A stretch of DNA of 64,000 nucleotides from Halosegnis rubeus (GTDB lineage: Archaea; Halobacteriota; Halobacteria; Halobacteriales; Haloarculaceae), in contig NZ_QJOW01000006.1 in the NCBI RefSeq assembly GCF_009184545.1, forward strand, positions 62,001 through 126,000. The letters are read 5' to 3'. Of this stretch, positions 454 to 16,897 are shown piece by piece. The notes below the pieces were generated by a model, which saw only the letters and a program-made list of their open reading frames with translations, searched no databases and had not been told where the DNA came from. How positions within the stretch are numbered: the first letter of the stretch is position 1; each line of letters starts with the position of its first letter. Position numbers and translations under genes: made by a program.

Positions 454-921
454 ATGAATTATCGGTGGGAACAAGGCTCAATGGTGCCACCAAAATATAT
501 CCGCTGTCACCCTGATAGTCTCGACTTAATGAGGGATCTCGACGCGATCGGCGGTATGTACAATATCGTGAGGCCAGACCGGAAGACTGCAGACCACCAA
601 GTTCCGGTAGATAAGTTCATCAAGATGCTTCATGAACACGAGGTTCCTGAGGAGCTCTGTGTTGTCGGGCTAGAGTCCGTCCTCGCAGACGATGAGGAGA
701 CTCGCCGTGAAGTAGTTGATACCATGCGAAGCGAGAGCGATTATCTAAACGGCCTCTCGCCACTCCCCAAGGTCCAGTTCGCTGTCGAGGGAAACTTCCA
801 GAGTGTCGGGGAGTCGTTCGAACTTGAACATGATGGGGAGTTCTATCAACTTGAGACCGTTTTTGGATCGAGACTCAAACGTCGGAGCGACGGCTGGCTC
901 GTCTCACCCTACCGGGTGTGA
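454..921 (+). CDS. hypothetical protein, 155 aa
   Basis: An acidic soluble protein with no motif I recognise. An AT-rich TATA-like box (TATTTAA, 434-440) lies only about 20 nt before ATG 454. The in-frame ATG at 481 (MVPPKYIRCHP), which follows a GGTGGGA stretch, may therefore be the true start and give 146 residues. It converges on the McrC-type gene, leaving only six bases between the stops. It may be an accessory of the adjacent restriction module, but only position suggests this. Confidence 0.6.
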   Translation: MNYRWEQGSMVPPKYIRCHPDSLDLMRDLDAIGGMYNIVRPDRKTADHQVPVDKFIKMLHEHEVPEELCVVGLESVLADDEETRREVVDTMRSESDYLNGLSPLPKVQFAVEGNFQSVGESFELEHDGEFYQLETVFGSRLKRRSDGWLVSPYRV

Positions 922-927
922 CATAAG

Positions 928-2721
928 TCAAAGAAGTTTGATCGGGTTAGAAACGTCAACGATTAGTTCCGCCCCATCATCAATGAGGAAATACAGTCGT
1001 ACAGACCCATACTCGCCCTCACCGTCAGGATCGTAGATAGGAACACAGGTTGCTCTGTTCTTCGGGTAGCGAGGATTCCCACTTTCATCCTCTGCAGCCA
1101 GGTGTTCCTCGATTCGCCGCTGGGTAAATCGACCTTTGTTTGGAAGGTCGTTTTTATTAGGTCCGTGTCGTGAGAAGTTAATCGCGGCGACGACCCGGTT
1201 TGTAAATGTGCTCTCGTTGTCGATGGTGAATGGTCCATCGAGATGGGACACTCGTTGGAGGTCCGACTCAGTAGCCCCCTCAAGAGCCAGTATACGGTTC
1301 GAGTCCAAGGCTTCGAACACTCGTAGTTCCGGATGTTCTTCTGCTAAGGCATCGAAGACGTACTCTCGGACGCTCGACCGATATCGCTCACAGGTAAACT
1401 TGTCTGAGGATGTGACGACATTGACAACGCCGTCAGTTTGCTGGACCGCCATATCCATCGCCTCTAACTGAGGGCAGAGGAATGCCATCCGGTTACACCC
1501 GGTCAGATAGGCGTACGTAAACATCCGAGAGCGCGGCCCGGACTCATTAGCAGGATTCGATCCCTCCTCGTAATACTTGGAGTCTAGAATCGCAATAGGG
1601 CCGAGTGGACCATGTAGTAGATGATCGGGTTCGTGTTTCGCTCGTGGGTTTCCTTCGAACGGCTGAAGAGGATACTCTCGACTACATTTGACGCCCTCAA
1701 GGCTATCGAGACGGTCGATATTTGATTTTACGTCTTGGAGGATATCCTCGATTACCCGCTGTGAGTAATCTTCGAACAGCCCGTTCATGCTCAACGCATA
1801 GTCGACAAGCAGCTCTTCGGCGCCGCTTCCAGCCCCACCCAGTAACACCGACGAGAGGATCGAACGGGAGGCATGCAATGCCCGCTGATAGTAATGTCGT
1901 TGTCGAGGCAACATTTCGATCGTTAGCGACCGGTAGCGAGTAATATTGCGCGGCGAGTCCTTGACACCAAGCGATTCAAGCCGTTGAACCTCCCGGTGAA
2001 CCATCGACAGTAAGGTCTCAGTTCGCGGGTGAGACGTCCCTTCTCCTCGGCTCAGCATGCGGAGAAGGATTCGCCCAGCCAGTAACACGGCTTCGTTAAC
2101 CGGATTACTGTGGTCAACTTCCGTCTCGATCCATGTCGGGGCTTGTGTCGGCCCAGTCTGATCAACCAACGTCTGTTCGACGTCAACCGAGCCATAGCCC
2201 TCGAACCCCTGCCGACGGGTGATCTGCAGGTCACGAATCACGCCGTTCCGACGGACTGTCCGCATCCCTGCAACATAGTTGATCGCCAGGATACTGATGA
2301 TCTTCTCCGAAGCAGTATTGTCTGCAGTTAACTCGTCGAGTGGGATACCGTAAAATGACTGAGTTCGATCGATATCGTAGACTGTTAGCAGCATTTCGAA
2401 CGCGGCCTCCCACCCGACCTTCGGTTCGACGTGGACGCTCAACCCTGGAAGTAGCTGCACCATCCCAACGATGTCCTCCGCAGTCACGTGGAGGGCCGAC
2501 CCGACGAGACGGGCGGACAGCACTTGGAGTGCGTCGTCTTCCTCAGTCGGGTTGACGCGAAGTCGAGGTCGCTGCTTGACGAACCGGCTTCCCCGCTGTG
2601 TGAACCCTGCAGCGCGGAGTTCCTGAATTATGTCGGTCGGACAGCCCTCTACGACGAGCTTCTGCTGTTCCTGCACTGCAGCCTGAGTTTCACCGTACTC
2701 GACATGGATCGCCTCACTCAT
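928..2721 (-). CDS. mcrC: McrC-type nuclease subunit of a McrBC-like restriction system (module 1)
   Basis: 597 residues, longer than classical McrC because of an N-terminal extension of about 100 residues. The McrC body is visible: a central conserved block (GYGSVDVEQTLV, then a DHSNPVNEAVLLAGRIL helix) and a C-terminal PD-(D/E)XK core with EPDHLL, then AILDSKYY, then a helix with FTYAYL. In McrBC systems this subunit supplies DNA cleavage once the AAA+ GTPase/ATPase partner has translocated on modified DNA. ATG overlaps the stop of the upstream AAA+ gene by 4 bases (ATGA), so the two are translationally coupled. Sequence divergence from module 2 argues for a separate origin and perhaps a different target. 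Confidence 0.85.
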   Translation of the reverse strand: MSEAIHVEYGETQAAVQEQQKLVVEGCPTDIIQELRAAGFTQRGSRFVKQRPRLRVNPTEEDDALQVLSARLVGSALHVTAEDIVGMVQLLPGLSVHVEPKVGWEAAFEMLLTVYDIDRTQSFYGIPLDELTADNTASEKIISILAINYVAGMRTVRRNGVIRDLQITRRQGFEGYGSVDVEQTLVDQTGPTQAPTWIETEVDHSNPVNEAVLLAGRILLRMLSRGEGTSHPRTETLLSMVHREVQRLESLGVKDSPRNITRYRSLTIEMLPRQRHYYQRALHASRSILSSVLLGGAGSGAEELLVDYALSMNGLFEDYSQRVIEDILQDVKSNIDRLDSLEGVKCSREYPLQPFEGNPRAKHEPDHLLHGPLGPIAILDSKYYEEGSNPANESGPRSRMFTYAYLTGCNRMAFLCPQLEAMDMAVQQTDGVVNVVTSSDKFTCERYRSSVREYVFDALAEEHPELRVFEALDSNRILALEGATESDLQRVSHLDGPFTIDNESTFTNRVVAAINFSRHGPNKNDLPNKGRFTQRRIEEHLAAEDESGNPRYPKNRATCVPIYDPDGEGEYGSVRLYFLIDDGAELIVDVSNPIKLL

Positions 2722-3944
2722 ACATCTCCAATTCCCATCTCCCGCTGCTCGGCTTCGGCTTGCCGCTGAGCAAGGTCGACGGCGGGATGGAGGTTGAATT
2801 CCTCGAACTCGTCATTGAGCGTTTCGTAATGCGCTGCAATCCGGCGGATCTGCGGTAGGGAAGCCGTATTTAATAGCCGCGGCGTGATGTAGGTCGCAAA
2901 GGCTTGCCCCACAGCGTTCGCCTCGTCTCCATTGTATTGGCCACCGTCACCACAGGCCTCCTGTAAGAACTGGGTCACGTCCTGGTAGTGCATCGGTCCC
3001 ATCTCCATGATGCCCCCATCTGCACTTGTGGTGGTGCCACTGTTGATGCCCTGATGGTGTTCTTCAAACAACTTAATGAGTTCATCTGTGTTGATTGCGA
3101 CGCCAGTTCCGATACCACCTACCCATCGGTTGAAGAGTTCCTTCCGATCCTCATCGTCGTAACGACTCAGCTCAATCATCGCGAACCGCCGGGTGATCGC
3201 ATTGTCAAGTTCGTTGACCGTTCGATCGGACATGTTCATCGTACAGATCAGCTTCACCTCATCCGTCAAGGTGAGCTCCTCGCCCCTTTTATTCCGGAAA
3301 ATGACCTGCTCATCGTCTTCGATTGCCGTGTACAACGGACCGAATACCTGAGAGATATCCGCACGGGTTATCTCGTCAATGATGACTCCCCAGTTATCTT
3401 TGTACTTCCGGGCCTTCTCAATCCCTTCAGACACACATCCGGATCGACGGTGGTAGCTAATCTCCCCGCCGTCAACTTCTGGTTGGATACTCCCCGTGAT
3501 GTCGCCGGGTGTCCAAGCTGGCGTCGCCGTGTGAATCGAGTAGTCAATACAGGTTTCCAGCGCAAGTTGCTTCGCGAAATAGGTCTTACCGGTTCCCGTA
3601 GGGCCATACAGAACGACAGGCTTCCCCAGTGCAATAGCAGTTCGAGCGTTTTTTAGAACGTTGTCCGGGACTAGAATATCCGCTAACTGTTTGTTACGCT
3701 GCGCGACTGTTTGTTTGACATCAAGTGGCGCGTCTTCGTTGGTGAGGATACTCTCACGTATCGACTGATTCGACCCCCGGAAGTTCCGATCGATCTGCTC
3801 TTCTTCGACGAGATAGCGAATAGCGTCTGGATCGTTGGTTTGTTGAAGGAACTCCTGGCCCTGGTTCTCATTATTCAGGATCCATTGAGAGAACTCCCTC
3901 GCTTCCTCCTCAGTGTAGTCAGTAAAGGCCCCTTCGTGACTCAT
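2718..3944 (-). CDS. mcrB: McrB-type AAA+ motor (module 1)
   Basis: A 408-residue AAA+ (AAA_5/dynein-related) ATPase. Seen: Walker A GPTGTGKT (about 114-121), Walker B VIIDEITRADIS (DE about 190-191), sensor TMNMSDR (N about 237) and arginine-finger region ITRRF (about 252-254). The short N-terminal region of about 90 residues has no obvious DNA-recognition domain. I chose ATG 3944 (MSHEGAFTDY) because upstream sequence up to 4031 is AT-rich promoter DNA. It is the first gene of an operon with the McrC-type nuclease and diverges from the ATPase-like gene at 4069. Similar MoxR-like motors exist, but the McrC partner supports McrB. Confidence 0.85.
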   Translation of the reverse strand: MSHEGAFTDYTEEEAREFSQWILNNENQGQEFLQQTNDPDAIRYLVEEEQIDRNFRGSNQSIRESILTNEDAPLDVKQTVAQRNKQLADILVPDNVLKNARTAIALGKPVVLYGPTGTGKTYFAKQLALETCIDYSIHTATPAWTPGDITGSIQPEVDGGEISYHRRSGCVSEGIEKARKYKDNWGVIIDEITRADISQVFGPLYTAIEDDEQVIFRNKRGEELTLTDEVKLICTMNMSDRTVNELDNAITRRFAMIELSRYDDEDRKELFNRWVGGIGTGVAINTDELIKLFEEHHQGINSGTTTSADGGIMEMGPMHYQDVTQFLQEACGDGGQYNGDEANAVGQAFATYITPRLLNTASLPQIRRIAAHYETLNDEFEEFNLHPAVDLAQRQAEAEQREMGIGDV

Positions 3945-4068
3945 TATCCCATCAAAATAACCGACACGATAAATAAATATGTGGAGATACGTGGATGGTT
4001 CGACACTGTATACGGAGAAAAATAACAGCATCTATATGTGCCTATACCGTCAATAATCAGTATCCGAG
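3945..4068. promoter_or_regulatory. divergent promoter region
   Basis: AT-rich spacer between two divergent defence operons. For the minus gene, a TATTTATTTAT run (about 3968-3980 on the plus strand as ATAAATAAATAT) lies about 30 nt upstream of ATG 3944. For the plus gene, TATAT at 4033-4037 lies about 32-36 nt before ATG 4069. Both distances fit near-leaderless archaeal transcripts. Confidence 0.55.
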
Positions 4069-5913
4069 ATGCCTATTGACCCCGCGACATACACTAGCGG
4101 GCACCATCTAATCCAGCAACTGGAATCACACAACCCCTGGTGGCGCTTCGATGGGGAGTTCGATCCAGCTGGTGGTGTCGATGCTCAACGTCAAGCCTAT
4201 CGCAATGCAGTAGAAGTTCTTGCCGCCGATGACAAGCGGTTCCTCGTCGTTGGAGGCGTGACCAGCACAGAAACCGCGGGAGTTCTTGAACAGCTTATCG
4301 GGACAGTGCTCCAGCAAGGGTTTCAGGAGCAGTATATCCAGGATGCTGAGCTCCGGGCACAGGCCAGCGAACTCATCGTTCCGCCCGAAAACGTTCTCTA
4401 TCTCCCACTCCGGGCATCACCGCTTTATCAGGTCCAACCAACGACTGGGCTCCACGGAGTCATTGATCACTTTCAGACCCATGTGGTGACATCAGACCAG
4501 CGGCAGTTCCTCTTCCTCGAAGGGTTCCATGAGCTACGGCGGCCCAGTCGGCGGGGCGACGACGCCGAATCTAATTGGCTAGATGTACTAGCCAAGATCA
4601 TAGACGAGACAAATAACGTGACGGTCGTTCTCTCAGTGCCGTCTTCGACGTTCGCCGACGATCAGCTCATCAATCACCCGAAATTCGACACAAGAACAGA
4701 CGACTGGGGGCTCCAGTCAGTCGATCATCTTGGATTCGAAGAGTATCTGCGACTTAGATATCGACGCCTCAACGTGGCGCCACTTGAGCAGCGGTTCGCT
4801 CCCCAGGGCGCGCGACGGTCCTTCCGAGCTGCCGTTCGAAATGGAGAGGTGGCTACCTTCGCAGAGCACGTTCGAACAGCTGAGGGCGAGAGAGTTCTGG
4901 AGCCATCTACGCTCCGCCGAGAGCTCACGACCTACGCCGTCGCTGGGGGGCGGCTCACCGCGACGCTTGACCGTGATGGCGTCGATCTTAGCGACGACAG
5001 ATTCGAGCAGCTACTTCGAAACAGAGGGAATCGCCCGCTTCGAGAGTTCCAAGCGGACCTCGTCGAGGAGCTCAGGGACGAGGTGACCAGCGTGGCGGAC
5101 CGGCTCTACGGACTCAAGGACTCACCTGGTCCGATCCGACTGGCGGCCGTCGTTGCGAACGATCGGCCGACTAAGCCAGTTGACTTCGACGATATCTGTA
5201 CTGTTCTCGATGTCGACCGGCGAACCCTCAGAGAACAGTACCTCCACGTGCTTGAGGAACTGAGCCTGGTCGGCGGGGTTTCGGCGTACGCGAACAAGCG
5301 GCCACGGTCAATCAGTCTCTATCACCGCGACCCGAGCGTCCCCGCCGCATTCGGCGAGTTTGACCTCAGAGATGCGTTGCGTCAGGAGCCGGAGCTCGCT
5401 CCCGACCTCTGGAGCGCGATGGCCTACGATCATACGGTTCGACTCTCCGAAGCGGTGAACGATCCATGGGACCCCAAACGAGGCGTGGTGAAACACTGGT
5501 CAGCGGATGATGGTGTCGTCGACTTCGTGCTGAAAGTTGACGGTCGGCCCGTCCCGGTGGTGCTCTCGCTGGATCACACACTCACGGAGTTCGAACGTAG
5601 GTCCGGAACGGATACGTACGATTCGCTCGTTTCCTTCCTCCGGCGGACGGGTGGATTGGAGGACGAAGACTCGCTTACAAAACGGCACTACGCTGCGGTC
5701 CCCGACCCCGTCGCCGAGCAACGAGAGGCAGTCGTTGACGACGAGAGCTACTTTGGGACGCGCCGAGGGGACGTTGCCGTCGACGGGAGCGCTCCCTTTG
5801 GTATCGTGGTCACGAACGCGCGAGAGGCAACCAACGACGGCGTAGTCATCGACCGCAGCGGACCGTTGCCGATTCTCCAAATCCCCCTCTGGACGTATCT
5901 TCGCCTGGCGTAG
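4069..5913 (+). CDS. AAA_14/DUF4143-like ATPase-like protein with degenerate P-loop
   Basis: 614 residues. The architecture suggests an archaeal-type ATPase: a first strand FLVVGGVTSTETA where the P-loop would be, but without the GKT of Walker A; a Walker B-like strand RQFLFLEGFHELRR (about 145-158); a sensor-like strand NVTVVLSVPSSTF; and a winged-helix-like region near 365-410 (VDFDDICTVLDVDRRTLREQYLHVLEEL). The C-terminal 200 residues resemble a restriction-like or DUF4143-like module. The missing Lys/Thr suggests ATP hydrolysis is lost or unusual. It heads the cluster with the DUF1156 methyltransferase, 84 nt upstream of it, so I infer a structural or regulatory part in that system. Family assignment is tentative. 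Confidence 0.55.
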   Translation: MPIDPATYTSGHHLIQQLESHNPWWRFDGEFDPAGGVDAQRQAYRNAVEVLAADDKRFLVVGGVTSTETAGVLEQLIGTVLQQGFQEQYIQDAELRAQASELIVPPENVLYLPLRASPLYQVQPTTGLHGVIDHFQTHVVTSDQRQFLFLEGFHELRRPSRRGDDAESNWLDVLAKIIDETNNVTVVLSVPSSTFADDQLINHPKFDTRTDDWGLQSVDHLGFEEYLRLRYRRLNVAPLEQRFAPQGARRSFRAAVRNGEVATFAEHVRTAEGERVLEPSTLRRELTTYAVAGGRLTATLDRDGVDLSDDRFEQLLRNRGNRPLREFQADLVEELRDEVTSVADRLYGLKDSPGPIRLAAVVANDRPTKPVDFDDICTVLDVDRRTLREQYLHVLEELSLVGGVSAYANKRPRSISLYHRDPSVPAAFGEFDLRDALRQEPELAPDLWSAMAYDHTVRLSEAVNDPWDPKRGVVKHWSADDGVVDFVLKVDGRPVPVVLSLDHTLTEFERRSGTDTYDSLVSFLRRTGGLEDEDSLTKRHYAAVPDPVAEQREAVVDDESYFGTRRGDVAVDGSAPFGIVVTNAREATNDGVVIDRSGPLPILQIPLWTYLRLA

Positions 5914-5961
5914 ATGCTAAATGATGCGGGCTCGGCTGCGGCACATTCTACGAGTCGGGTG

Positions 5962-5967
5962 TTTTAT
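5962..5967 (+). promoter_or_regulatory. TATA-like box for the methyltransferase
   Basis: TTTTAT lies 30-36 nt before ATG 5998 in an otherwise GC-rich spacer. The distance suggests a transcript with almost no leader. Confidence 0.4.
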
Positions 5968-5997
5968 CCCAGAGAGCAAACACTCTATTGATAGTAA

Positions 5998-8649
5998 ATG
6001 TCTCGGAATCCACGGAGCGACCAGTCAGGCGACCGAACCGAACTCCCCATCGAACGGGGGTTCCCGATCGAGCGCGTGAATGAGATTGCAGAGAAGGAGT
6101 CGCGGGCCAAGCAGCACTACCGCCCGGTCTACACGATGCACAAGTGGTGGGCACGGCGACCGGGCTGTCTATTCCGGGCAATCTCACTGTACTCACTGCT
6201 CGACGACGAGACCGATGAGTCGGAAGTTTCAGTGTACGAACCTGGTGAGAACCAGAGCCTCGGGGCTAACGGTATCGATGAAGCGGACCTGCTGCGTGCA
6301 GTCTCAGATGTGGACATGGAGGACCCCGAGTCGCTCTGGGAGTTCTACCCCAAAGATGTCCGCATCAAGGACAAGAAAGTCTTGGACCCGTTTATGGGTG
6401 GCGGGACCTCGCTTGTTGAGGCATCGCGCTTCGGCGCCGAAACAGTGGGATACGATCTGAACCCAGTGGCCTGGTTCGTCAGCAAAAAGGAGTTGGAGGC
6501 TGGCCAAACTGATCCTGAGGAACTCGAAGAAGCGTTTGAGCGGGTGAAGGAGGATGTCGCCGAGGAGCTCCTCCAATACTACCGGACGCCCTGTCCCAAT
6601 GGGGACCACGAGGCGGACGTGATGTACAACTTCTGGGTGAAGGAACTGGACTGCGTCTCCTGTGGACATACTGTTCCGTTGTTCAATGACTACCGGGTAG
6701 CGAAGGAGCGATATGTCGACGATCCGGGGTACAACGTACTCTGTCCTGATTGTGATGCCGTCACGAGGACCGACGACTGGCAGAGTGAGAGCAGGTGCGG
6801 TGAATGCGACCACGAGTTCGTCCCGAAGGAGGGGAATGTCAGTCGTGGCGGATACTATAATTGTCCCGAGTGCGGGCAAAAGGAATCGATCACAGATGCG
6901 ATCGCGGAGCAGGGTAAAGCAAACACCCGACAGTACGCACTAGAATACTACTGTCCAGACTGTGATCAAAGCGGACGAAATAAAAGCGAGACGAAGGGAT
7001 ACAAGCAAGTAGAACCTGAAGATAAGAATCTTTTCGAGAAAGCAAAGCGGGAGTGGGAGACTAGGACGGATTTGCACGAGTACGTTCCGAGTGAAAAAAT
7101 CCCAGCTGGTCATATGACCTCTAAGCGGAACCCGGTGTTTGACCATGGATATGAAAATTGGGTAGATATGTTCAACGAGCGCCAGTTGCTTTGTTTGGCG
7201 AAACTGCTTGAATCTATTGAGAAGATCCCAGATCAGCATACGAAGGAATATCTTTTGCTTACATTCTCTGAGGTGCTAAATTTCAACAACATGATGGTTC
7301 CTTATCAAGCAGCAAGGAACCACACGACGAACTTGTTCAAATCGAATTCATTCGATCCTCCACAAGCGTCGTCCGAAGGCAATTTGTGGGGGACTGAGTA
7401 CGGGATTGGTCGATTCAAAAGTACATTTGAAATGGTGCTTAATGGAGTCAAGTATGCCCAAGCTCCGACAGATCGTTACTTCGATGAGTCAGGGAATAAG
7501 GCTGAGACAGGAGAATTCTCTCAGCCGATCGGGGATAACTCGTCTGTTTATCAGGGGGATATGCGACAAATAGATGCAGAAGACGAATATGATGCAGTGA
7601 TCACCGATCCGCCGTACTATGACAATATTATTTATTCTGAGCTTGCCGATTATTTCTACGTCTGGCAGAAAGTTCTCCTGGAAGACGTATATCCTGGGTT
7701 TGACCAAGCCAAGACGCCTCGTGCTGAATCAATCGTTACGAACCCGTATCTGAATAAATCCGCCGCAGACTTTGAGCGCGAGATGGCACAAGCTTTGGAG
7801 GTAATCCATCACGCGCTAAAAGATGACGGATTTCTATCGTTTACCTACCATCACAGCGATCAAGAATCTTGGGGAGAACTGCTCGAATCTCTCTGTAATA
7901 CTGGATTTGAGGTTACTGCGACATATCCGATAAATTCGGACATGATGAAGTTCATCGGCGGTGAGTCGGTCTCCTTCGACATCGTTATTGTCGCCAGACC
8001 CACCGACGAGCGCCAGCCGATCGCCTGGAATGCCCTACGGCGCCGGATTGTCCGTACCGCCAAGGAGACCCGAGCGGTGCTTGAAGAGAACCGCGAGCTG
8101 AAAGGCGGCGACATCGGCGTCATTGAGATGGGCAAGTGCTTCCAGGAGTACTCGAAACACCACGGGGAAGTCCGTCGCGGACAGGACATCATGACCGCAA
8201 AAGAGGTTGTCCAGAAGATCTACGGCATTATCCAGGACAACACCCGTGGCGAGCAGGCGATCTACCTTGACCTGCTGGAGGAGTACAATCCTAACTACGA
8301 CGACTTGAACAAACATCTGCGCCACTCCGACGCCTCCGAAGACCAACTCAAGCAGATGGAACTCGTCGAGATGGATGGTGGCACGTTCTCGCTGCTGGAC
8401 TGGCGTGACGAAGGCCGGCAAGCCTACGTCCAAGATAAGGTCCAGGAGGGCGACGCCACGCCGCTGGACAAGGCACACTTCCTGCGCTACCGCTTCGAGG
8501 AAGGTAAGGCCACGTCCGAGTATCTCGAACGTTGGAGCGACGACGACCTCTCGGACGTCTGTGAGGGACTGGCGACAGCCACAGGCGACGAGACGTACCT
8601 GCGGATGATCGGCGTCGACATCTCTCTCGACGAGTATCTGGATCAGTAA
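5998..8649 (+). CDS. DUF1156-type adenine-specific DNA methyltransferase
   Basis: 883 residues. The N-terminus has the DUF1156 signature: PIERVNEIAEKESRAK followed by MHKWWARRP (about 23-55). SAM motif I is LDPFMGGGT (about 129-137), and the catalytic motif IV is DPPYYDN (about 537-543). Between them are several CxxC zinc-binding pairs (about 195-315) that probably read the target or bridge subunits. DPPY predicts N6-adenine (or N4-cytosine) methylation. The gene belongs with the ATPase-like gene before it and the SNF2 helicase after it. DUF1156 methylases with helicases and ATPases are predicted phage-defence systems related in logic to DISARM. Base composition drops in the middle (about 6900-7950), with codons such as AGA, AAA and ATA, unlike both ends, which suggests mosaic recombination. 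Confidence 0.85.
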   Translation: MSRNPRSDQSGDRTELPIERGFPIERVNEIAEKESRAKQHYRPVYTMHKWWARRPGCLFRAISLYSLLDDETDESEVSVYEPGENQSLGANGIDEADLLRAVSDVDMEDPESLWEFYPKDVRIKDKKVLDPFMGGGTSLVEASRFGAETVGYDLNPVAWFVSKKELEAGQTDPEELEEAFERVKEDVAEELLQYYRTPCPNGDHEADVMYNFWVKELDCVSCGHTVPLFNDYRVAKERYVDDPGYNVLCPDCDAVTRTDDWQSESRCGECDHEFVPKEGNVSRGGYYNCPECGQKESITDAIAEQGKANTRQYALEYYCPDCDQSGRNKSETKGYKQVEPEDKNLFEKAKREWETRTDLHEYVPSEKIPAGHMTSKRNPVFDHGYENWVDMFNERQLLCLAKLLESIEKIPDQHTKEYLLLTFSEVLNFNNMMVPYQAARNHTTNLFKSNSFDPPQASSEGNLWGTEYGIGRFKSTFEMVLNGVKYAQAPTDRYFDESGNKAETGEFSQPIGDNSSVYQGDMRQIDAEDEYDAVITDPPYYDNIIYSELADYFYVWQKVLLEDVYPGFDQAKTPRAESIVTNPYLNKSAADFEREMAQALEVIHHALKDDGFLSFTYHHSDQESWGELLESLCNTGFEVTATYPINSDMMKFIGGESVSFDIVIVARPTDERQPIAWNALRRRIVRTAKETRAVLEENRELKGGDIGVIEMGKCFQEYSKHHGEVRRGQDIMTAKEVVQKIYGIIQDNTRGEQAIYLDLLEEYNPNYDDLNKHLRHSDASEDQLKQMELVEMDGGTFSLLDWRDEGRQAYVQDKVQEGDATPLDKAHFLRYRFEEGKATSEYLERWSDDDLSDVCEGLATATGDETYLRMIGVDISLDEYLDQ

Positions 8650-8722
8650 ACGACCGCCGACACTTCCTCGCTGTACAATCTGTCTACATAACGTATTTCC
8701 CGGCCACCTCCGTCTAACGCGT

Positions 8723-10480
8723 ATGGACGATGAGGACCTCGTGTCGGTCGAGGTCACGCACGAACCGCCAGAGGACCTCCTCAAGCGACTCGGCGATGAG
8801 CAACCAACCCCGTCAGCCCATTGGGCCAGCCTGACTGCTACTCGCCTCCAACACGGGAAGGCATCTAAGGAGCTCCGATCACTGACGACCGTCGATGAGG
8901 AGGAAGTAAAACTGCTAGAACACCAGGTAGACGCCGCCTACCGGGCACTTTTCGATATGAACGGGAAGGCTCTCCTAGCGGACGAGGTGGGTCTCGGCAA
9001 GACGATCGAAGTCGGGATGATCCTCAAAGAGATGCATTTCCGAGACACTGACGATTCAGTCCTCATCCTGACCCCGGCACAACTCGCCAAGCAGTGGCAG
9101 GGTGAAATGCTGGAGAAGTTTGGGCTGGAGTTTATGTGCAACTACGACGACGAGTTCGAGGGGTTCGACGCCCACGATCACATCATCGCCAGCATCGACA
9201 CGGCAAAGAGCGATCGGCATCGAGCGACCGTTCTAGCCCGCGATTGGGACGTGCTAGTCCTCGACGAAGCCCACTACGTCAAAAACGAAGATACCGATCG
9301 CTACGACCTGATCGAGCGTATCTCGTACGACTACGCCTTCTTCCTCACTGCCACACCGATCCAAAACGATCTTACAGACCTCTACAACATCGTCACCCTC
9401 CTCCGACCGGGGCTGTTCGGCTCCCGGGAAGTGTTCCATCGCTACTTCATCAACAGCGATCAGGAGACGCTGGTCAACCGGAACGAGCTACAAGAGCGTC
9501 TCCAGCAAGTGATGATTCGAAACCGGCGCGAAGAGACAGATATCGACTTCACGGAGCGCCATGTCGATACCCGGACCTTCGAGCCGAGCCAAGCGGAACG
9601 CGAGCTCTATGAGGCCGTCTCCGAATACGTCACAGGTGCCTATAGCCGGGACCAAGGACAAAAACTCGTCCTGATGCTCCTCCAGAAGGAGGTCGTCTCC
9701 AGCCCAGCAGCGCTCCGGAAAACAATCGAGAAGCGCCTCTACGAACAAGGAGAACTCACTCATAAAGATGAGTTAGAGACGATCCTCGATAAGATAGACG
9801 CGATTGAGACGGTCACGAAACAGGAGCGGCTGTTGGATATCGTTGAGGAAGCCCGCGAGCAGGTAGAGATGGGGCGGGTCATCGTCTTTACACAGTTCCG
9901 TGCCACCCAAGACCAGCTACTGGAGCGCCTCGCCCAAGAAGGCTACGCGACTCACGCGTTCCATGGCGGCCACTCGAGCCAAGAAAAAGAGGAGATCGTT
10001 ACGGAGTTCCAAGAACACGGTGGGGTTCTCGTTTCGACGGACGCGATGAACGAAGGACGAAACCTCCAGTTTTGTAATATTATGGTCAATTACGACCTCC
10101 CCTGGAACCCAATGAAGGTCGAACAACGGATTGGGCGTATTCATCGGATCGGGCAGAAGCGTGCAGTCTACGTATTTAATATGGCGCTTGAGGACACTAT
10201 CGAGGAATACGTGCTTGATCGGCTCTACCACAAGATCGATCTCTTCCAACAATCGGTCGGTGAGCTGAGTTCAATCCTTACCAGGCTCGAGGACTCTGGC
10301 ACGAGCTTCGAGGACGAAATTTTCGAACGGTTAGTCAGTGCTGGCTCAGAGGTCGATCTGGAGAACGATTTCGACGCCATGGCTGTCGACCTGCAGGAAC
10401 AGCGAGAGCTGGCACAAAAGGTCGAGGAATTCAACAGCGGCGTATTCCAAGGGTTCGACCTGGGGGCCGACGATGAGTGA
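8723..10480 (+). CDS. SNF2/RapA-type helicase-like ATPase
   Basis: 585 residues with a complete SF2 SNF2 core: Walker A DEVGLGKT (87-94), motif II DEAH (181-184), motif III LTATPIQNDL (about 208-217), LRPGLFG after it, and motif VI QRIGRIHRIGQK (about 464-475). It lacks the large extra domains of RapA. Such motors translocate on double-stranded DNA; in DISARM-like systems they pair with a methylase. The last 8 bases overlap the next gene (ATGAGTGA), so the two are co-translated. The spacer from the methylase is 73 bp with a possible TATA (TACATAAC) of its own. Confidence 0.85.
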   Translation: MDDEDLVSVEVTHEPPEDLLKRLGDEQPTPSAHWASLTATRLQHGKASKELRSLTTVDEEEVKLLEHQVDAAYRALFDMNGKALLADEVGLGKTIEVGMILKEMHFRDTDDSVLILTPAQLAKQWQGEMLEKFGLEFMCNYDDEFEGFDAHDHIIASIDTAKSDRHRATVLARDWDVLVLDEAHYVKNEDTDRYDLIERISYDYAFFLTATPIQNDLTDLYNIVTLLRPGLFGSREVFHRYFINSDQETLVNRNELQERLQQVMIRNRREETDIDFTERHVDTRTFEPSQAERELYEAVSEYVTGAYSRDQGQKLVLMLLQKEVVSSPAALRKTIEKRLYEQGELTHKDELETILDKIDAIETVTKQERLLDIVEEAREQVEMGRVIVFTQFRATQDQLLERLAQEGYATHAFHGGHSSQEKEEIVTEFQEHGGVLVSTDAMNEGRNLQFCNIMVNYDLPWNPMKVEQRIGRIHRIGQKRAVYVFNMALEDTIEEYVLDRLYHKIDLFQQSVGELSSILTRLEDSGTSFEDEIFERLVSAGSEVDLENDFDAMAVDLQEQRELAQKVEEFNSGVFQGFDLGADDE

Positions 10481-11633
10481 CGCGTCTTTATCCGTCACGC
10501 AAGCCCGTGTTGAGCGGTTTGCCAAGACATATCTCGAAATGTCCGGATGTTCAGTGCAGGAGCGGGACGACGAACTCGTCGTCACCGTTCCGGAAACCGC
10601 AACCACAGACTTGTTGAATACGGGAACGACGACTATTGTGTGTTCCAGCGATCCAGAGCGTATCGGTAACGAATTAGCTCTCCACCCCGAAAGCGAGACG
10701 TTTCAGGGGCTGCTGCGGGAAGCAGCTGATCAGGCCCCAATTGGCCGTGTTGAGCTGATGGATGCGGATACCGAGATTCAGCTTCCTGACTGGCTTGTCG
10801 AGAGCGAGGTGTCCGTTGCTAGCACGCAATTCATGCCGTACTACGATCGGACCGCGGTCGTCGGACTATTCCGTATCGGCATCGAGACTGTCAGTGAGTA
10901 CCAGACAGCTGTCCTTCGTACCGGTGCCGTCGATGCGAACTCCATGGGGGAGCTACCAGCGCTCACGGACCGGCTGCTCGCCCATTCGACACCTGATTCG
11001 GCGCCCATTGAAGCCACTGCAACGACTCTCAACGAGAGCACTGCCCGGGAGGCAATCGATACCATAGGCGAAGTCATCATCAAGCAGGTCCAACCAACGA
11101 TTGCGGAGATCCAAGAGGGTGCAACTCGCGCTGCTGGTGCAGAGTTAGACGAGTATCGACAGCTGCAGGACCAACGCATTGAGGAACTCGAAGCAGAGAT
11201 CTCAGCTGTATCTAATAACATCGAGAAACTCAGTGCAACCATCGAAGAGACTGAAAGTCAAGCTGAGCGGCTGGAAACGCTACAGGAACGCAAGGATTTG
11301 AAATCAAAACGTGAGGAGTTACAGAATGAGTTAGCCGAGCTGACGGAGGCCCGTTCAGCTGGATTTCCTCAAAAACGTCAAGAGGTCAGTAATAGGCACA
11401 GTCTTGAGGTAGTAGTTGAGCCACTGATTATGACCGAACTCCAGTATGAACAGGGAGAACTCGAGGTGACGGTCGTTGACTCCACTACTCAAACTTCTGT
11501 TCGTGTCGGCTACGGGAACGGCATCGGTGTGACCGAATCACTGGCCTGTGAGCGCTGCGGATCAACTCTTTCAGGTGAAAATCCCCTCCGGCTCGACGGC
11601 CAAGCGACTTGCTGCACGTCCTGTCGAAAATAG
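10473..11633 (+). CDS. coiled-coil/zinc-ribbon partner of the SNF2 protein
   Basis: 386 residues starting at the ATG embedded in the stop of the helicase gene. The N-terminal 200 residues form an unrecognised mixed domain. Residues of about 210-310 are a long coiled coil (IEELEAEISAVSNNIEKL and heptads after it). The C-terminus ends in a zinc ribbon, CERCG then CTSCRK. The 8-base overlap makes an obligatory partner of the helicase likely. I infer an adaptor or DNA-sensing arm; no enzymatic motif is seen. Confidence 0.6.
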   Translation: MSDASLSVTQARVERFAKTYLEMSGCSVQERDDELVVTVPETATTDLLNTGTTTIVCSSDPERIGNELALHPESETFQGLLREAADQAPIGRVELMDADTEIQLPDWLVESEVSVASTQFMPYYDRTAVVGLFRIGIETVSEYQTAVLRTGAVDANSMGELPALTDRLLAHSTPDSAPIEATATTLNESTAREAIDTIGEVIIKQVQPTIAEIQEGATRAAGAELDEYRQLQDQRIEELEAEISAVSNNIEKLSATIEETESQAERLETLQERKDLKSKREELQNELAELTEARSAGFPQKRQEVSNRHSLEVVVEPLIMTELQYEQGELEVTVVDSTTQTSVRVGYGNGIGVTESLACERCGSTLSGENPLRLDGQATCCTSCRK

Positions 11634-11832: not shown

Positions 11833-14535
11833 TCAGTAAGAGGTCCTCGTCTTCATTACAGCAGAGTCCCGCTGCCAGTCGCTGCTTGAGAACTCCAATT
11901 TGAAGGTCCCAGCACCGCGTGCCGTTTCTGCATCTGCATACCGGACGGTGGGATCAGTCGACAGAACTTCGGTCACTCGGTACACTCGGTATCGGTCTGA
12001 CTCAGCTTCGAGCAGTTGCGTTTGCGTAGTATTCAGATTGAAATCCTGTTTTGACTCTGCAGTTGATTTGACTTCAATGATTTGTCCATCGGGGTCGCCG
12101 ACAGACCCGACATCTAAATCCCGACCGATTTTCGCCTGCCTCACGTCAACGCCTTGCTTCGCCTCCAGTTGCAACTTCACGAAGAGCTCACCCAGCGCCC
12201 CGATGGTGTGTTTCTTTCCGAGCATCGAGTCGACCCCGTGTTCTCGAAGAAACGGTCTCCAATCCTCGATGTCGAGTTCGTCGAATGCTTCCAGGTACCG
12301 TTCGCTAACGTACCGGGGACCAGTTCTGAGGGCATCGGCACCTGCTTCGGCGAAGATGCCGAGATTTCCAGTCACAGTCTCTGTCGTAAACCAAGGTGCA
12401 GCTTGGAGATCTTGACACACGGCATCTGTCTCATCAGCCACATTCGGCTCGTAGGCTTCACCGAGAAGAAGCCGAGACGGTGAAAGCCAGGAGCCATTCT
12501 CAGTTTGTAGTCGGAGAGTTGGCGTGTGTTCACCGACCTCCCACTCACCATCACTCGATGCTCGGCAGAGCATTGCCGCTACGAGGATTCGATCATTCGC
12601 CGAGAGAGTGTCCCAATCGACGGTCTGGAGCCATTCTTCGATCAGCGCTCCTTCGGTCAATTCTTCCACGTTGTTGCCATCCAGCACCGACCGAATCTCC
12701 TCATTGTCAGCAAGGTCATTATCTACGATATTAAGGGAAGACCTGACTTCCTGTAGCGGGTTCGCAGTTTCGAACTCACCCAAGTCAAGCTCAGCAGGCG
12801 GAAGGTAGACCTGTTCCACATCATCAGTTCCTACAACTCTTCCGTCTTCAAGGGGAATACCAGTCGAACTGAGGGTCCTAGATTGCTTCCAGGGATTTTT
12901 CGTCGAGATACTGTTATAGATTTCTTCGAACGTATCTTTTCGAGTGTCACTGGTGAGTTCTTCAAGAGGATAGGTTACATCGTGATTCTGTAGGAAGTCG
13001 TGAATTCCGAGTGAGCTTCCGTTAGCAATCGTCTGAAGGATCTCCTCGTGTTCCTCGTGAACAGGACGGTCAGCACCCGATTCCTCTACTTGATCAGCGT
13101 CGAAAGCTTCGCGAATGTGTTCGTCAACCACCTGGCAGTCGTCAAGTTTGATTCGCTGACCCGTCTGATCCCGGACCAATTTCGAGTTCTCGACATACTC
13201 GTGGATTTTGTCGACAATTTCCGTGGTTACGAACGTGTCTCCTTGACCCTCCGGTACGAAGACGCCCAGGTCGGTCCACCAGGAGTCGTGACCAGCAACG
13301 ACATCGAGGACATCCTTCGCACACTCAACTACGCCCTGCGCGATTTGACGGTTCCATGGAAGCTCCTGCTTGATGGTTTGTCGGTCAGCAGGTGTGAGGA
13401 AGTCCGCATGAACGAGAAAGTCGAAGTCAGTCTCGAGTTCTTTGAGAGGGAGATAGCTGAATACGCCGGTATGCAGTGTCCCGCTCTCTGGCCGAGCGAA
13501 GCCACCATCTTCGTCTACGATACATGCGATGAACACCTCACGATAGTCCACACCTCCTCGCATATACTGCTCAGTCTTCGGATCTTCCTGAATGCTATCC
13601 GGCACCTCCCAAAGATGTTTGAACAGTACCCACGTATCCGCCTCAGTCGTGCCATTCACTAACGACTCATCGAGCTCTACAACTTCGATAGGATCAAACT
13701 GCGCGTCTGCCTCGTCTCTGAGCGTTTCCTGCTTTGAACTGGGAAACCCCTGTTTCGCTCTCTCAACGGAGGAGGCTAATCCATCATCATGAACCTCGTC
13801 TGTCCGACTAATACGCCTTGAGCTGTCCGAGTAATTATCATCGATAGATAACTTACGAACGTCCTTCAAGAAGAGAAACACACGTCGGTCGATGTTCTCG
13901 CTCCGGAGAGGTTCAAAGAGTTCATCATCGGAAAGCAGTTGTTGGCCCCATTCATCCAGCCTGACAACAAACCGGGTAGTATACTCGGTTCCGTCAATCT
14001 TCGTAGGAACATCTGTCTCCTCCGTAGGCTTACAACTCCAGGGGACAACTCTCCAAGGAATATCATCACCGTGCTCTTCCGCCCGTTCTCTATCGAACGA
14101 GAAGTGGAATTGACCGGAGTGAACCTCAACGGATTGACTGATCTCAAAGATTGATTTGAACCCCACCCCGATGAAACCGATGTGATCACGAGGATGCTTC
14201 GGTGAGACGCCAGCGGCACACAGTCCAGTTACGTCGTCCTTGACGTCACCGGAGCCTCCATCCTGGCCCGCGAGTGCACTATCGGTAAACTCACGACCGT
14301 CGTTGAGAATTTCTAAGCACCAGTCTCCGTTGATCTTTCGGATTTGGAAACGGACAGCACTGGCACCCTCATCGTCTGCATTCTGGATGAATTCGAGTGG
14401 GAAATACGTTGAGGCGAAGTTCATCTGGACGACATTCGAGTGCCCGTGGAGACTCGTCCTCACCAGATCCGGAGAATCAGTCAAATATTGCTCTCGAATG
14501 CTCCGTACTAATTCGTCTGGATTGCTGGCATCCAT
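11833..14535 (-). CDS. sacsin-like GHKL ATPase with C-terminal DUF3883 nuclease-like domain
   Basis: 900 residues. The N-terminus is an Hsp90/sacsin-type GHKL ATP-binding fold: N-box EFIQNADDEGASAVRF (about 48-63), a 'LEILNDG' strand and the G-box GFIGVGFKS. The C-terminal about 100 residues are DUF3883: GRDLDVGS then QIIEVKST, a PD-(D/E)XK-like core with D, E and K in place. The centre has no familiar domain. GHKL-DUF3883 proteins occur repeatedly in prokaryotic defence islands. It is a single gene, convergent with the helicase cluster and divergent from the 310-residue gene at 14603. It probably acts as a stand-alone ATP-gated nuclease, but this is inferred. Confidence 0.8.
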   Translation of the reverse strand: MDASNPDELVRSIREQYLTDSPDLVRTSLHGHSNVVQMNFASTYFPLEFIQNADDEGASAVRFQIRKINGDWCLEILNDGREFTDSALAGQDGGSGDVKDDVTGLCAAGVSPKHPRDHIGFIGVGFKSIFEISQSVEVHSGQFHFSFDRERAEEHGDDIPWRVVPWSCKPTEETDVPTKIDGTEYTTRFVVRLDEWGQQLLSDDELFEPLRSENIDRRVFLFLKDVRKLSIDDNYSDSSRRISRTDEVHDDGLASSVERAKQGFPSSKQETLRDEADAQFDPIEVVELDESLVNGTTEADTWVLFKHLWEVPDSIQEDPKTEQYMRGGVDYREVFIACIVDEDGGFARPESGTLHTGVFSYLPLKELETDFDFLVHADFLTPADRQTIKQELPWNRQIAQGVVECAKDVLDVVAGHDSWWTDLGVFVPEGQGDTFVTTEIVDKIHEYVENSKLVRDQTGQRIKLDDCQVVDEHIREAFDADQVEESGADRPVHEEHEEILQTIANGSSLGIHDFLQNHDVTYPLEELTSDTRKDTFEEIYNSISTKNPWKQSRTLSSTGIPLEDGRVVGTDDVEQVYLPPAELDLGEFETANPLQEVRSSLNIVDNDLADNEEIRSVLDGNNVEELTEGALIEEWLQTVDWDTLSANDRILVAAMLCRASSDGEWEVGEHTPTLRLQTENGSWLSPSRLLLGEAYEPNVADETDAVCQDLQAAPWFTTETVTGNLGIFAEAGADALRTGPRYVSERYLEAFDELDIEDWRPFLREHGVDSMLGKKHTIGALGELFVKLQLEAKQGVDVRQAKIGRDLDVGSVGDPDGQIIEVKSTAESKQDFNLNTTQTQLLEAESDRYRVYRVTEVLSTDPTVRYADAETARGAGTFKLEFSSSDWQRDSAVMKTRTSY

Positions 14536-14602: not shown

Positions 14603-15535
14603 GTGTCTGATTCAGATATGTACCTCCCTATTGACCCTACTCAGAACGAAGCCTCACCGCAAGACCTCATCCAGAGTTTGCCGACCCGAGCCGCTCGCCG
14701 GCGTGTCCTCCAGGCAGCCGAGATCTCTATCGATGTCGATGACAAGAATTTCGAGAGTTTCCTCAACGAGCTATCCGAGGTCGAACTTCGGCGAGCCGCT
14801 TCCGAACTCAGATTCGCCGGCGAACCCACGGTCTATTACTATCGGGTCAACCACCTCCATCAACTCTCCCCCGACGACGCCCTCGGACGAAGCAATAACG
14901 AGAGTTCTTCTGGAGCATACGGCCCAGATGTCGAGACAGCAATCAGGGACCACGACCGTATCTACGTCGTCTGCCAAGTGCCGGAAACCGGATCACAAAC
15001 ACAACTCACACTCTCCTCTGACGACCGGGAAACGACCGTCGCAACGTTCAAACCGAGGACACAGCTCCTCGCCGTTCGGGCTTCCGACGACGGTACCGCA
15101 GACGCGTCACTACAGGCAGTGCTGAGTTATCTTGGCCTGGATGATGCAACCCGAATTTCCTTCCTCGATAACGGGTTTCGGGGTCGGTTCGAGGATGCCT
15201 GCGTTGATGGATATTCGACGCTTCGACTGAGGAATACGAACCCACGAGACAGCTCGCGGGAGATCGAGGTTCGGTCAAAGGATCCGGAGGCTAAGAACGT
15301 AGCCAACGTCCGTACCGACGTGATCGTCGAGGACCTACTCCAGCGTGGTGACACGGAACTCAACGCGGCAACGGGACTCGTCACCGTCCCGACTGACGTC
15401 CGCTCGATGGAACACGGCGAACCGCTGCATCCGCGAGTAACAATTGGATTTCCGGATGGATGGGTGGCCTTCGAACAGTTTGTACCTGAGCAGATCCTGA
15501 TCGAGTTCGATGATTTGGTGCGAGATTCGCTCTGA
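14603..15535 (+). CDS. hypothetical protein, 310 aa, next to the GHKL-DUF3883 gene
   Basis: The start may be GTG 14603 or ATG 14618 (MYLPIDPTQ). The first 95 residues look helical (DLIQSLPTRAARRRVLQAAEI). The rest is rich in predicted strands, with repeated short acidic loops. No catalytic motif, signal or membrane segment is seen. It is divergently paired with the GHKL gene and placed between two restriction modules, so a defence accessory role is possible but unsupported by motifs. Confidence 0.65.
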   Translation: MSDSDMYLPIDPTQNEASPQDLIQSLPTRAARRRVLQAAEISIDVDDKNFESFLNELSEVELRRAASELRFAGEPTVYYYRVNHLHQLSPDDALGRSNNESSSGAYGPDVETAIRDHDRIYVVCQVPETGSQTQLTLSSDDRETTVATFKPRTQLLAVRASDDGTADASLQAVLSYLGLDDATRISFLDNGFRGRFEDACVDGYSTLRLRNTNPRDSSREIEVRSKDPEAKNVANVRTDVIVEDLLQRGDTELNAATGLVTVPTDVRSMEHGEPLHPRVTIGFPDGWVAFEQFVPEQILIEFDDLVRDSL

Positions 15536-15694: not shown

Positions 15695-16897
15695 TCAACC
15701 CAGGGTCCGGGATAGAAAAGCGAAAAATCGCTCAGCGTTTTCTCGACCGAATTCACCAACATCTGTAGTATTCACCCCGGTCGGTAGCTCCAACATCGCT
15801 AAACTATACCCGTTCTTCACGGAGTAGTCATTCTCGACAGCACCATCGTTGTCTGGATAGACCAGCACACCTGGCGCATCATAGGCAGTCTGGTACGCTA
15901 CGACCTGATAGACGTCGTTATTCTTGACTTGGGTCTTCCACTTGGCGTCTCCGACCAATACTGGCTCACCGTGGCGTTTGACTACGAAATCAGGTCGCAT
16001 ACGAATCGACGGATTTCCTCTGAGTAGATTGTCGGTTCGAGCCTGACCTTCTACGCTCCAGCCATCTCGTCCGTCCACGGTTTCGCGTGCTGTTCTCTCT
16101 ACTACCTTTTCGAACACGTCGTTCATTCCGATCAACAGGGAGTACGATGCACCCTCACCGGCGACGATGTCTTCGATGTAGATGTGTTTCAGCACGAGGC
16201 GAGACAAGGCCAGAACCTTCTCATAGTAATCAGTAAGGCGAGTCAGTTCGATCCGTTCGGCTTCCTCGATCGAAACTTCGCGGAGCGTCACTCGTCGTCT
16301 GAGCCGCGATTGGTATTCGCGTAGTTCGCCAGCGATCTCGGTGCTATCCACCAGCGACGACAGCGTGTTCGCAACACAGAGAATCGCCTGGTTTAGCGTG
16401 GTATCGTAGGTGAATTCATCGTAATCGCACTCGAAATCCGTCTTACCGGGACCGCCTGCGAGCTGTCTCTGAACGTTCAATCTGCCCCGGAGATACTCTT
16501 CTGTTCCTTCTACATCGACGTACTCTCTCCTAAGGCCCTGAGACAGAACTGCTTCCAGTTCTTCGAGAAACAGGGCTGCTACCGTGTCCACAAAATTCGT
16601 CCCGCTTTCGAGTTGCGTTTCGTGTGAGAGGTGGGTTGGTTCTGTCCCGTTTGCGTATCGTAGCAGCGTGACTAGGTTCGGCTCCCCGATTTTCGGTTGT
16701 ATCTCAATAGTGGGTCCATCGGGGAGGGCAACGACTCCGACTCGATGATCCGTGTGCAGTACGACCTGTTTGCCTCGTCTGTACTCCACTCGTAACCCGT
16801 CGACCTGTGATTCGATCATCTCGATATCGTCATCGGACAGGTCGATTGGGTCTGATTCGTCGTACTCGGACAGTTCTATCAGGTCAGCCGTTGTCAC
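15695..16897 (-). CDS. mcrC: McrC nuclease subunit (module 2)
   Basis: 400 residues, of the usual McrC length. Seen: an N-terminal strand-rich region, GRLNVQRQL (about 148-156), DYDEFTYDTTLNQAIL, and the C-terminal PD-(D/E)XK core RPDFVV / LVGDAKWK / YQVVAYQTAY (about 300-345). It cleaves DNA when recruited by McrB. Its ATG overlaps the McrB stop by 4 bases. It is closer to canonical McrC than module 1. Confidence 0.92.
   Translation of the reverse strand: MTTADLIELSEYDESDPIDLSDDDIEMIESQVDGLRVEYRRGKQVVLHTDHRVGVVALPDGPTIEIQPKIGEPNLVTLLRYANGTEPTHLSHETQLESGTNFVDTVAALFLEELEAVLSQGLRREYVDVEGTEEYLRGRLNVQRQLAGGPGKTDFECDYDEFTYDTTLNQAILCVANTLSSLVDSTEIAGELREYQSRLRRRVTLREVSIEEAERIELTRLTDYYEKVLALSRLVLKHIYIEDIVAGEGASYSLLIGMNDVFEKVVERTARETVDGRDGWSVEGQARTDNLLRGNPSIRMRPDFVVKRHGEPVLVGDAKWKTQVKNNDVYQVVAYQTAYDAPGVLVYPDNDGAVENDYSVKNGYSLAMLELPTGVNTTDVGEFGRENAERFFAFLSRTLG

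Follow-up and report, generated by a model that had tools for sequence, protein, structure and literature searches.

The stretch analysed here raises the question of which genes in and around a group of four collinear reading frames form one functional system, and to which known class of defence that system is related. The window, a stretch of 64,000 nucleotides, corresponds to C2:62001-126000 of a 2.66-Mb haloarchaeal genome, and the four genes (positions 4069-11633) were originally predicted to form a single defence system composed of a degenerate ATPase, a DUF1156 methylase, an SNF2 motor and a coiled-coil/zinc protein (CCZ). All four were found intact on the same strand with short gaps between them, and the description of the individual products proved accurate: the first has GGVTSTET instead of a GKT-type motif, where its relatives have GPDGxGKT or GRRGVGKT; the second has a DNA methylase domain besides its match to DUF1156 (Pfam E 2e-11); the third contains SNF2 and Helicase_C domains; and the fourth combines a long coiled coil (helices 188-259 and 263-295 in the AlphaFold model) with a C-terminal four-Cys motif. 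The limits of the proposed unit were misplaced, taking in a first gene that is rare in such loci and leaving out four conserved genes, of which those for the McrB-like, McrC-like and S proteins are located at 454-4031 and that for DUF499 just outside the window. The relevant genes, including those read upstream on the same contig, are the following:

454-921, + strand: S, small protein of 155 aa without recognised domain or Pfam match
928-2721, - strand: McrC-like nuclease, 597 aa, PD-(D/E)XK motif (PDH...LDSK)
2718-4031, - strand: McrB-like AAA+ NTPase, 437 aa, with Walker A GPTGTGKT, DEITRAD and the NxxD-type signature NMSD; its gene shares 4 nt with that of McrC
4069-5913, + strand: G1, AAA_14-DUF4143 family member, accessory, 614 aa, Walker motifs lost
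5998-8649, + strand: MT3, DUF1156 DNA amino-methyltransferase, 883 aa, motif I DPFMGGGTS at 6385-6411 and motif IV DPPY at 7606-7617
8723-10480, + strand: SNF2 motor, 585 aa, DEVGLGKT and DEAH intact; N-terminal half of a helicase of the BrxHII/DrmD/RapA type that is divided over two genes
10473-10480, + strand: SNF2/CCZ gene overlap, 8 nt
10473-11633, + strand: CCZ, 386 aa counted from an internal ATG; C-terminal half of the split helicase, with an alpha/beta region, a coiled coil and a four-Cys C terminus (about 11547-11624)
C2:52344-55028, upstream of the window: MT1
C2:55266-58493, upstream of the window: DUF499
C2:58533-61160 (L103:2533-5160), just upstream of the window: MT2, second DUF1156 methylase

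The order is MT1, DUF499 and MT2 outside the window, followed inside it by S, McrC, McrB, G1, MT3, SNF2 and CCZ.

Homologues of CCZ, G1, the methylase and the McrC-like protein were searched in 392 haloarchaeal genomes, and the DNA around the CCZ matches was read. CCZ was identified at 61 loci in 57 of these genomes, with SNF2 immediately upstream in nearly all, and 52 of the 61 loci have an McrC-like gene within 30 kb; several of the remaining loci end at contig boundaries. These 52 loci were selected for CCZ and McrC within 30 kb, the presence of McrB, S, methylase, DUF499 and SNF2 being unselected. Fifty carry the full set of seven genes: a McrB-like AAA+ protein, a McrC-like PD-(D/E)XK nuclease, S, a DUF1156 methylase, a DUF499 ATPase, SNF2 and CCZ. 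Taken singly, McrB, the methylase and SNF2 are present in all 52 loci, and DUF499 and S in 51 each; in genome G360 DUF499 is gone and unrelated genes occupy its slot. The S family, of about 130 aa, is usually found between McrC and the methylase/DUF499 genes. In the commonest order (32/52 loci, and also in a RefSeq record of Halapricum desulfuricans), McrB and McrC read forward, S, methylase and DUF499 in reverse, and SNF2 and CCZ forward again; seven loci have the methylase flipped beside SNF2. Seven to eight loci show an extended form, among them that of the source genome, which has three paralogous methylases together with the accessory G1. The extended order is annotated in RefSeq on a plasmid of Halorientalis litorea and was also found in genomes G135 and G085, with variants without MT3 (G081) or without G1 (G036 and G051). 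Other genes in the gaps vary among cassettes, including GmrSD, an HTH and nucleotidyltransferase pair, and NA37.

At the level of whole genomes, 51 of the 57 genomes with CCZ also have McrC, and three genomes have McrC without CCZ, while the methylase accompanies CCZ in 53 of the 57. Fisher p values are about 1e-53 (CCZ-McrC) and 1e-55 (CCZ-methylase), uncorrected for kinship, yet many genera are represented. This conservation strongly supports the seven genes as one functional unit. CCZ is confined to Halobacteria, which account for all 50 loci found when 84,980 species genomes were scanned and for all 16 plasmid records; none was found in the viral contigs searched.

The CCZ protein, labelled "hypothetical protein" in RefSeq, is no unfamiliar partner: it is the C-terminal half of a helicase of the BrxHII/DrmD type, encoded as a separate protein. 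A profile of 38 CCZ sequences aligned to the tail of a Haloplanus rubicundus helicase with an hhalign probability of 96% (E 6.6e-9, score 67.5), residues 9-239 of CCZ matching residues 694-905 of this 967-aa protein, which is encoded beside a BREX-5 PglX. DrmD-like tails were matched with a probability of 92% (score 56) over columns 8-175 of the CCZ profile, outside the coiled coil; among the controls, the best of 120 unrelated proteins scored 36 and the best of 60 shuffles 20.7. The homology surfaced only through profile comparison with full-length helicase tails: single-sequence comparisons of CCZ with RapA or with individual DrmD proteins did not reach significance by themselves, a Foldseek search of the PDB with the CCZ model, a good one (pLDDT 86), gave no significant match, and a sequence-profile search of the PDB returned coiled coils only. 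A DrmB match on CCZ was weak (E 1.5e-4) and lies over the coiled coil, and the gene adjoining SNF2 in Oscillatoria (346 aa) is a weak match to CCZ. The SNF2 protein has all motor motifs, and its nearest solved structure by sequence is RapA; no nuclease domain was matched on CCZ or on SNF2, where SNF2/Helicase_C are the only domains. The overlap of the two genes, exactly 8 nt as originally noted, recurs in 49 of 53 SNF2-CCZ pairs, the start-codon pattern not being found in the other four, and is thus a family trait and not chance. Together, the tail homology and this overlap show SNF2 and CCZ to be one helicase divided over two proteins. Like BrxHII/DrmD/RapA-type helicases, the pair has C-terminal alpha/beta and coiled-coil regions after the SNF2 core, here contributed by CCZ. 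BrxHII of BREX type 3 and type 5, DrmD of DISARM and ArmA of ARMADA, whose helicase and C-terminal parts are matched by SNF2 and CCZ, are single chains, whereas the cassette helicase is encoded by two overlapping genes and has an extra four-Cys C terminus, the Cys pattern of which was found in 53/53 sequences.

The degenerate ATPase did not hold its place as a member of the system. Judging by its relatives, G1 belongs to the AAA_14-DUF4143 family, with a STAND/AAA-like fold in a model of modest confidence. Its Walker A position reads GGVTSTET (4255-4278), and the Walker B "DD" is replaced by "EG" (4519-4524). In its four closest relatives the Walker A position reads GPDGxGK(T/S) or something close to it, and in the paralogues GRRGxGKT; the degeneration is private to the source genome. 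G1 is present in five of the 52 cassettes and absent from 47, and a role as a core, inherently degenerate ATPase was rejected, this gene being rare and its relatives keeping GKT.

A similar private loss affects one methylase. MT2 has DLPF in place of the DPPY seen in every other member of the family examined, and is probably catalytically dead in the source genome only, so that a generally dead subunit was likewise rejected. That both G1 and MT2 have lost catalytic residues suggests that these two subunits have decayed or been re-used in this lineage, and the copy of the source genome may be partly decayed; the catalytic motifs of MT3, SNF2, DUF499, McrB and McrC are intact. A tree of 69 methylases sets the MT2 group, whose members adjoin DUF499 and S, apart as a deep clade and places MT1 and MT3 of the source genome together in the other half. 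The overall identity of MT1 and MT3 is 69%, but it drops to 45-57% over residues 321-480, a region in which MT3 is closer to the MT1 of another genome. Several CxxC pairs lie between motifs I and IV of MT3, in a probable target-recognition region, and the divergence over residues 321-480 suggests that MT1 and MT3 differ in target specificity.

The McrB and McrC proteins bring together an AAA+ NTPase with an NxxD signature and a PD-(D/E)XK nuclease. Walker A GPTGTGKT, DEITRAD and NMSD of McrB and PDH/LDSK of McrC are conserved in the family alignments (n=56), and the Pfam McrBC match of McrC is below the cut-off in the source genome and above it in homologues. Type IV McrBC systems (PMC11090510) have the same pair of domains in adjacent overlapping genes. 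They differ in that the cassette McrB has no reader domain recognised by Pfam, McrC is about 600 aa long, and DUF499, DUF1156, SNF2 and CCZ are fixed partners; a reader domain might sit in the long C-terminal part of McrC. Methylase-linked and DISARM-like-linked branches of McrBC are mentioned in the same paper, their description being deferred to a later one.

The likeness to RM-like defence systems that had been predicted for the locus was borne out, but not the DISARM-like logic: among the cassette proteins scanned, neither DrmA/DrmB (DUF1998) nor a YprA-like product was recognised, and membership of DISARM or ARMADA was rejected. The closest kin of the core are the DUF499-centred BREX-related (BR) systems, types 1-3, defined in PMC12839542, and the Hma system of PADLOC (PMC8565338), with which the cassette shares DUF499, an SNF2 helicase and a DUF1156 methylase with a Cys-rich insert between motifs I and IV. 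DUF499 ATPase, N6-type DUF1156 methylase and SNF2 helicase are each found in 51-52 of the 52 loci, and PADLOC models gave matches to HmaA (E 8e-61), HmaB (E 9e-36) and HmaC (E 1e-17), DUF499/HmaC being present in the source genome. In contrast to BR/Hma, the helicase is split over two proteins, and McrB, McrC and S are constant. BR type 1 has a helicase-fused PD-(D/E)XK nuclease, and no such fusion was found in the cassette; type 2 has an HKD nuclease on the helicase and a stand-alone DUF3780, and neither a PLD nor a DUF3780 Pfam match was obtained in the scanned cassette proteins, S included; type 3 has PglZ and an inactive STAND protein, and PglZ (PF08665) was found in the source genome only on contigs C1 and C7. 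A PglZ hidden in the cassette was searched for and not found, and the ATPase matches DUF499, so the PglZ and BrxC/PglY pair of BREX is not seen here. G1 has a STAND-like fold, with Walker motifs lost here and intact in relatives, and is present in five of the 52 loci. An archaeal COG1743-DUF499-SWI2/SNF2-nuclease operon with EVE (PMC7641849) likewise combines methylase, DUF499 and SNF2 at a single locus, but there the helicase carries a fused nuclease and has EVE instead of McrBC as partner. The original statement that this set of partners is not a named type was upheld for the exact combination in the libraries and papers searched, and no description of the seven-gene set was found in the literature searched, subscription papers lying outside the search. 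Since about a fifth of BR type 1 systems are without the fusion and have other nucleases nearby, some haloarchaeal loci may sit unremarked in the tables of PMC12839542, the main text of which contains neither "McrB" nor "McrC".

We therefore consider it likely that the genes studied make up the right-hand part of an RM-like defence cassette of haloarchaea, akin to the DUF499-centred BR/Hma systems, with McrC as the probable cutter, and we infer that the cassette is best read as an undescribed haloarchaeal variant of such a system. An antiviral role would follow from this kinship, and the effector role of McrC is the least certain step. A more specific version, plausible but held tentatively, is that of an RM system of its own type restricted to Halobacteria, in which DUF499, DUF1156 and the split SNF2 would recognise and mark DNA, and McrB-McrC would be the effector against unmarked DNA. 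In the broader reading, host DNA would be marked by the methylase or methylases on an amino group of adenine or cytosine, the DUF499 ATPase, which is Orc/Cdc6-like, would assemble on DNA and sense unmarked incoming DNA, and the SNF2/CCZ motor would translocate or remodel (the roles of DUF499 and SNF2 being assigned from homology only). The McrB NTPase ring would then power McrC, which would cut, McrBC filling the place held by PglZ or a fused nuclease in described BR types.

The main competitor of this scheme, which we find rather unlikely, is that two mutually complementary systems travel together, one a methylase system of BR/Hma-like kind, the other a Type IV McrBC that acts independently against foreign modified DNA. 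McrBC forms a separate transcription unit, usually divergent or convergent, its association with methylases is known in general (PMC11090510), GmrSD genes occur inside several cassettes, and complementarity of BREX with a Type IV enzyme is reported for a plasmid (PMC8565348). However, McrBC is as constant as the methylase (51/57 CCZ genomes) and fixed beside S, while GmrSD comes and goes, and a McrB without a recognised reader domain speaks against a stand-alone Type IV role. A housekeeping or plasmid-maintenance cassette for DNA modification or remodelling, with no part in antiviral defence, is improbable: several cassettes are carried on large plasmids and RapA-type motors act in transcription too, but the spread is patchy (57/392 genomes), the surroundings are dense in defence genes, and the homologous Hma/BR systems have reported anti-phage activity (PMC12839542). 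Hardly credible is the four-gene system as proposed, G1, methylase, SNF2 and CCZ acting independently of the flanking genes. Collinearity on one strand with short gaps speaks for it, and methylase, SNF2 and CCZ do form one unit, being present together in 52/52 loci, but G1 is missing from most, the methylase lies elsewhere in most, and DUF499, McrB, McrC and S are constant. Rare co-occurrence, named in advance as the outcome that would count against the proposal, applies to the first gene only; the neighbourhood counts largely refute the four-gene reading.

If the reading of one RM-like cassette is right, McrBC, regarded as an enzyme for cutting modified DNA, would have come to serve a methylase-protected system as its nuclease, and a motor of the RapA/BrxHII type would work as two proteins. 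Between BREX-like and Type IV restriction there would then stand an undescribed system that is common in haloarchaea, with about 15% of the 392 genomes searched carrying it, and CCZ, an unannotated protein family, would be explained. Some carriers are species of Haloferax, a genus with laboratory genetics, which makes the idea testable.

Several further genes were observed around the cassette and elsewhere in the genomes. To its right, a 900-aa protein (11833-14535, - strand) has a sacsin-like N-terminal ATP-binding region and a NO VEIN C-terminal domain, is TmtA-like by PADLOC, and has a homologue adjoining the extended cassette in G085. Two copies of the H310 family (about 310 aa, no Pfam domain above cut-off) flank the cassette, at 14603-15535 (+ strand) on the right and at L102:11272-12213 on the left, and the family recurs beside extended cassettes. 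The same island contains a second, more typical McrC/McrB pair (15695-19233, - strand; 400 and 779 aa), homologues of which flank the extended cassette in G110 and G135, with McrB alone in G036. An AddA/AddB-like pair (L102:3919-11189; a UvrD helicase with PD-(D/E)XK and a PD-(D/E)XK protein of 1144 aa) adjoins the cassette in the source genome, G110 and G135. On another contig, a PglZ domain in an 812-aa frame (C1:10067-10567, L134) possibly belongs to a separate BREX system. Further upstream on C2, at about 27-35 kb (L099:7288-15297), a recurrent set comprises an active paralogue of G1 (AAA_14-DUF4143) together with a VWA protein, a protein with HEAT repeats and other genes, to which the Halorientalis litorea version adds a ring nuclease annotated as CRISPR-associated and an ADP-ribosylglycohydrolase; this is possibly another undescribed defence set. 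Finally, GmrSD-type (DUF262/DUF1524) Type IV enzymes occupy variable slots of many cassettes between S and SNF2 (L140, L151, L195, L202 and others), resembling BREX-linked GmrSD elsewhere.
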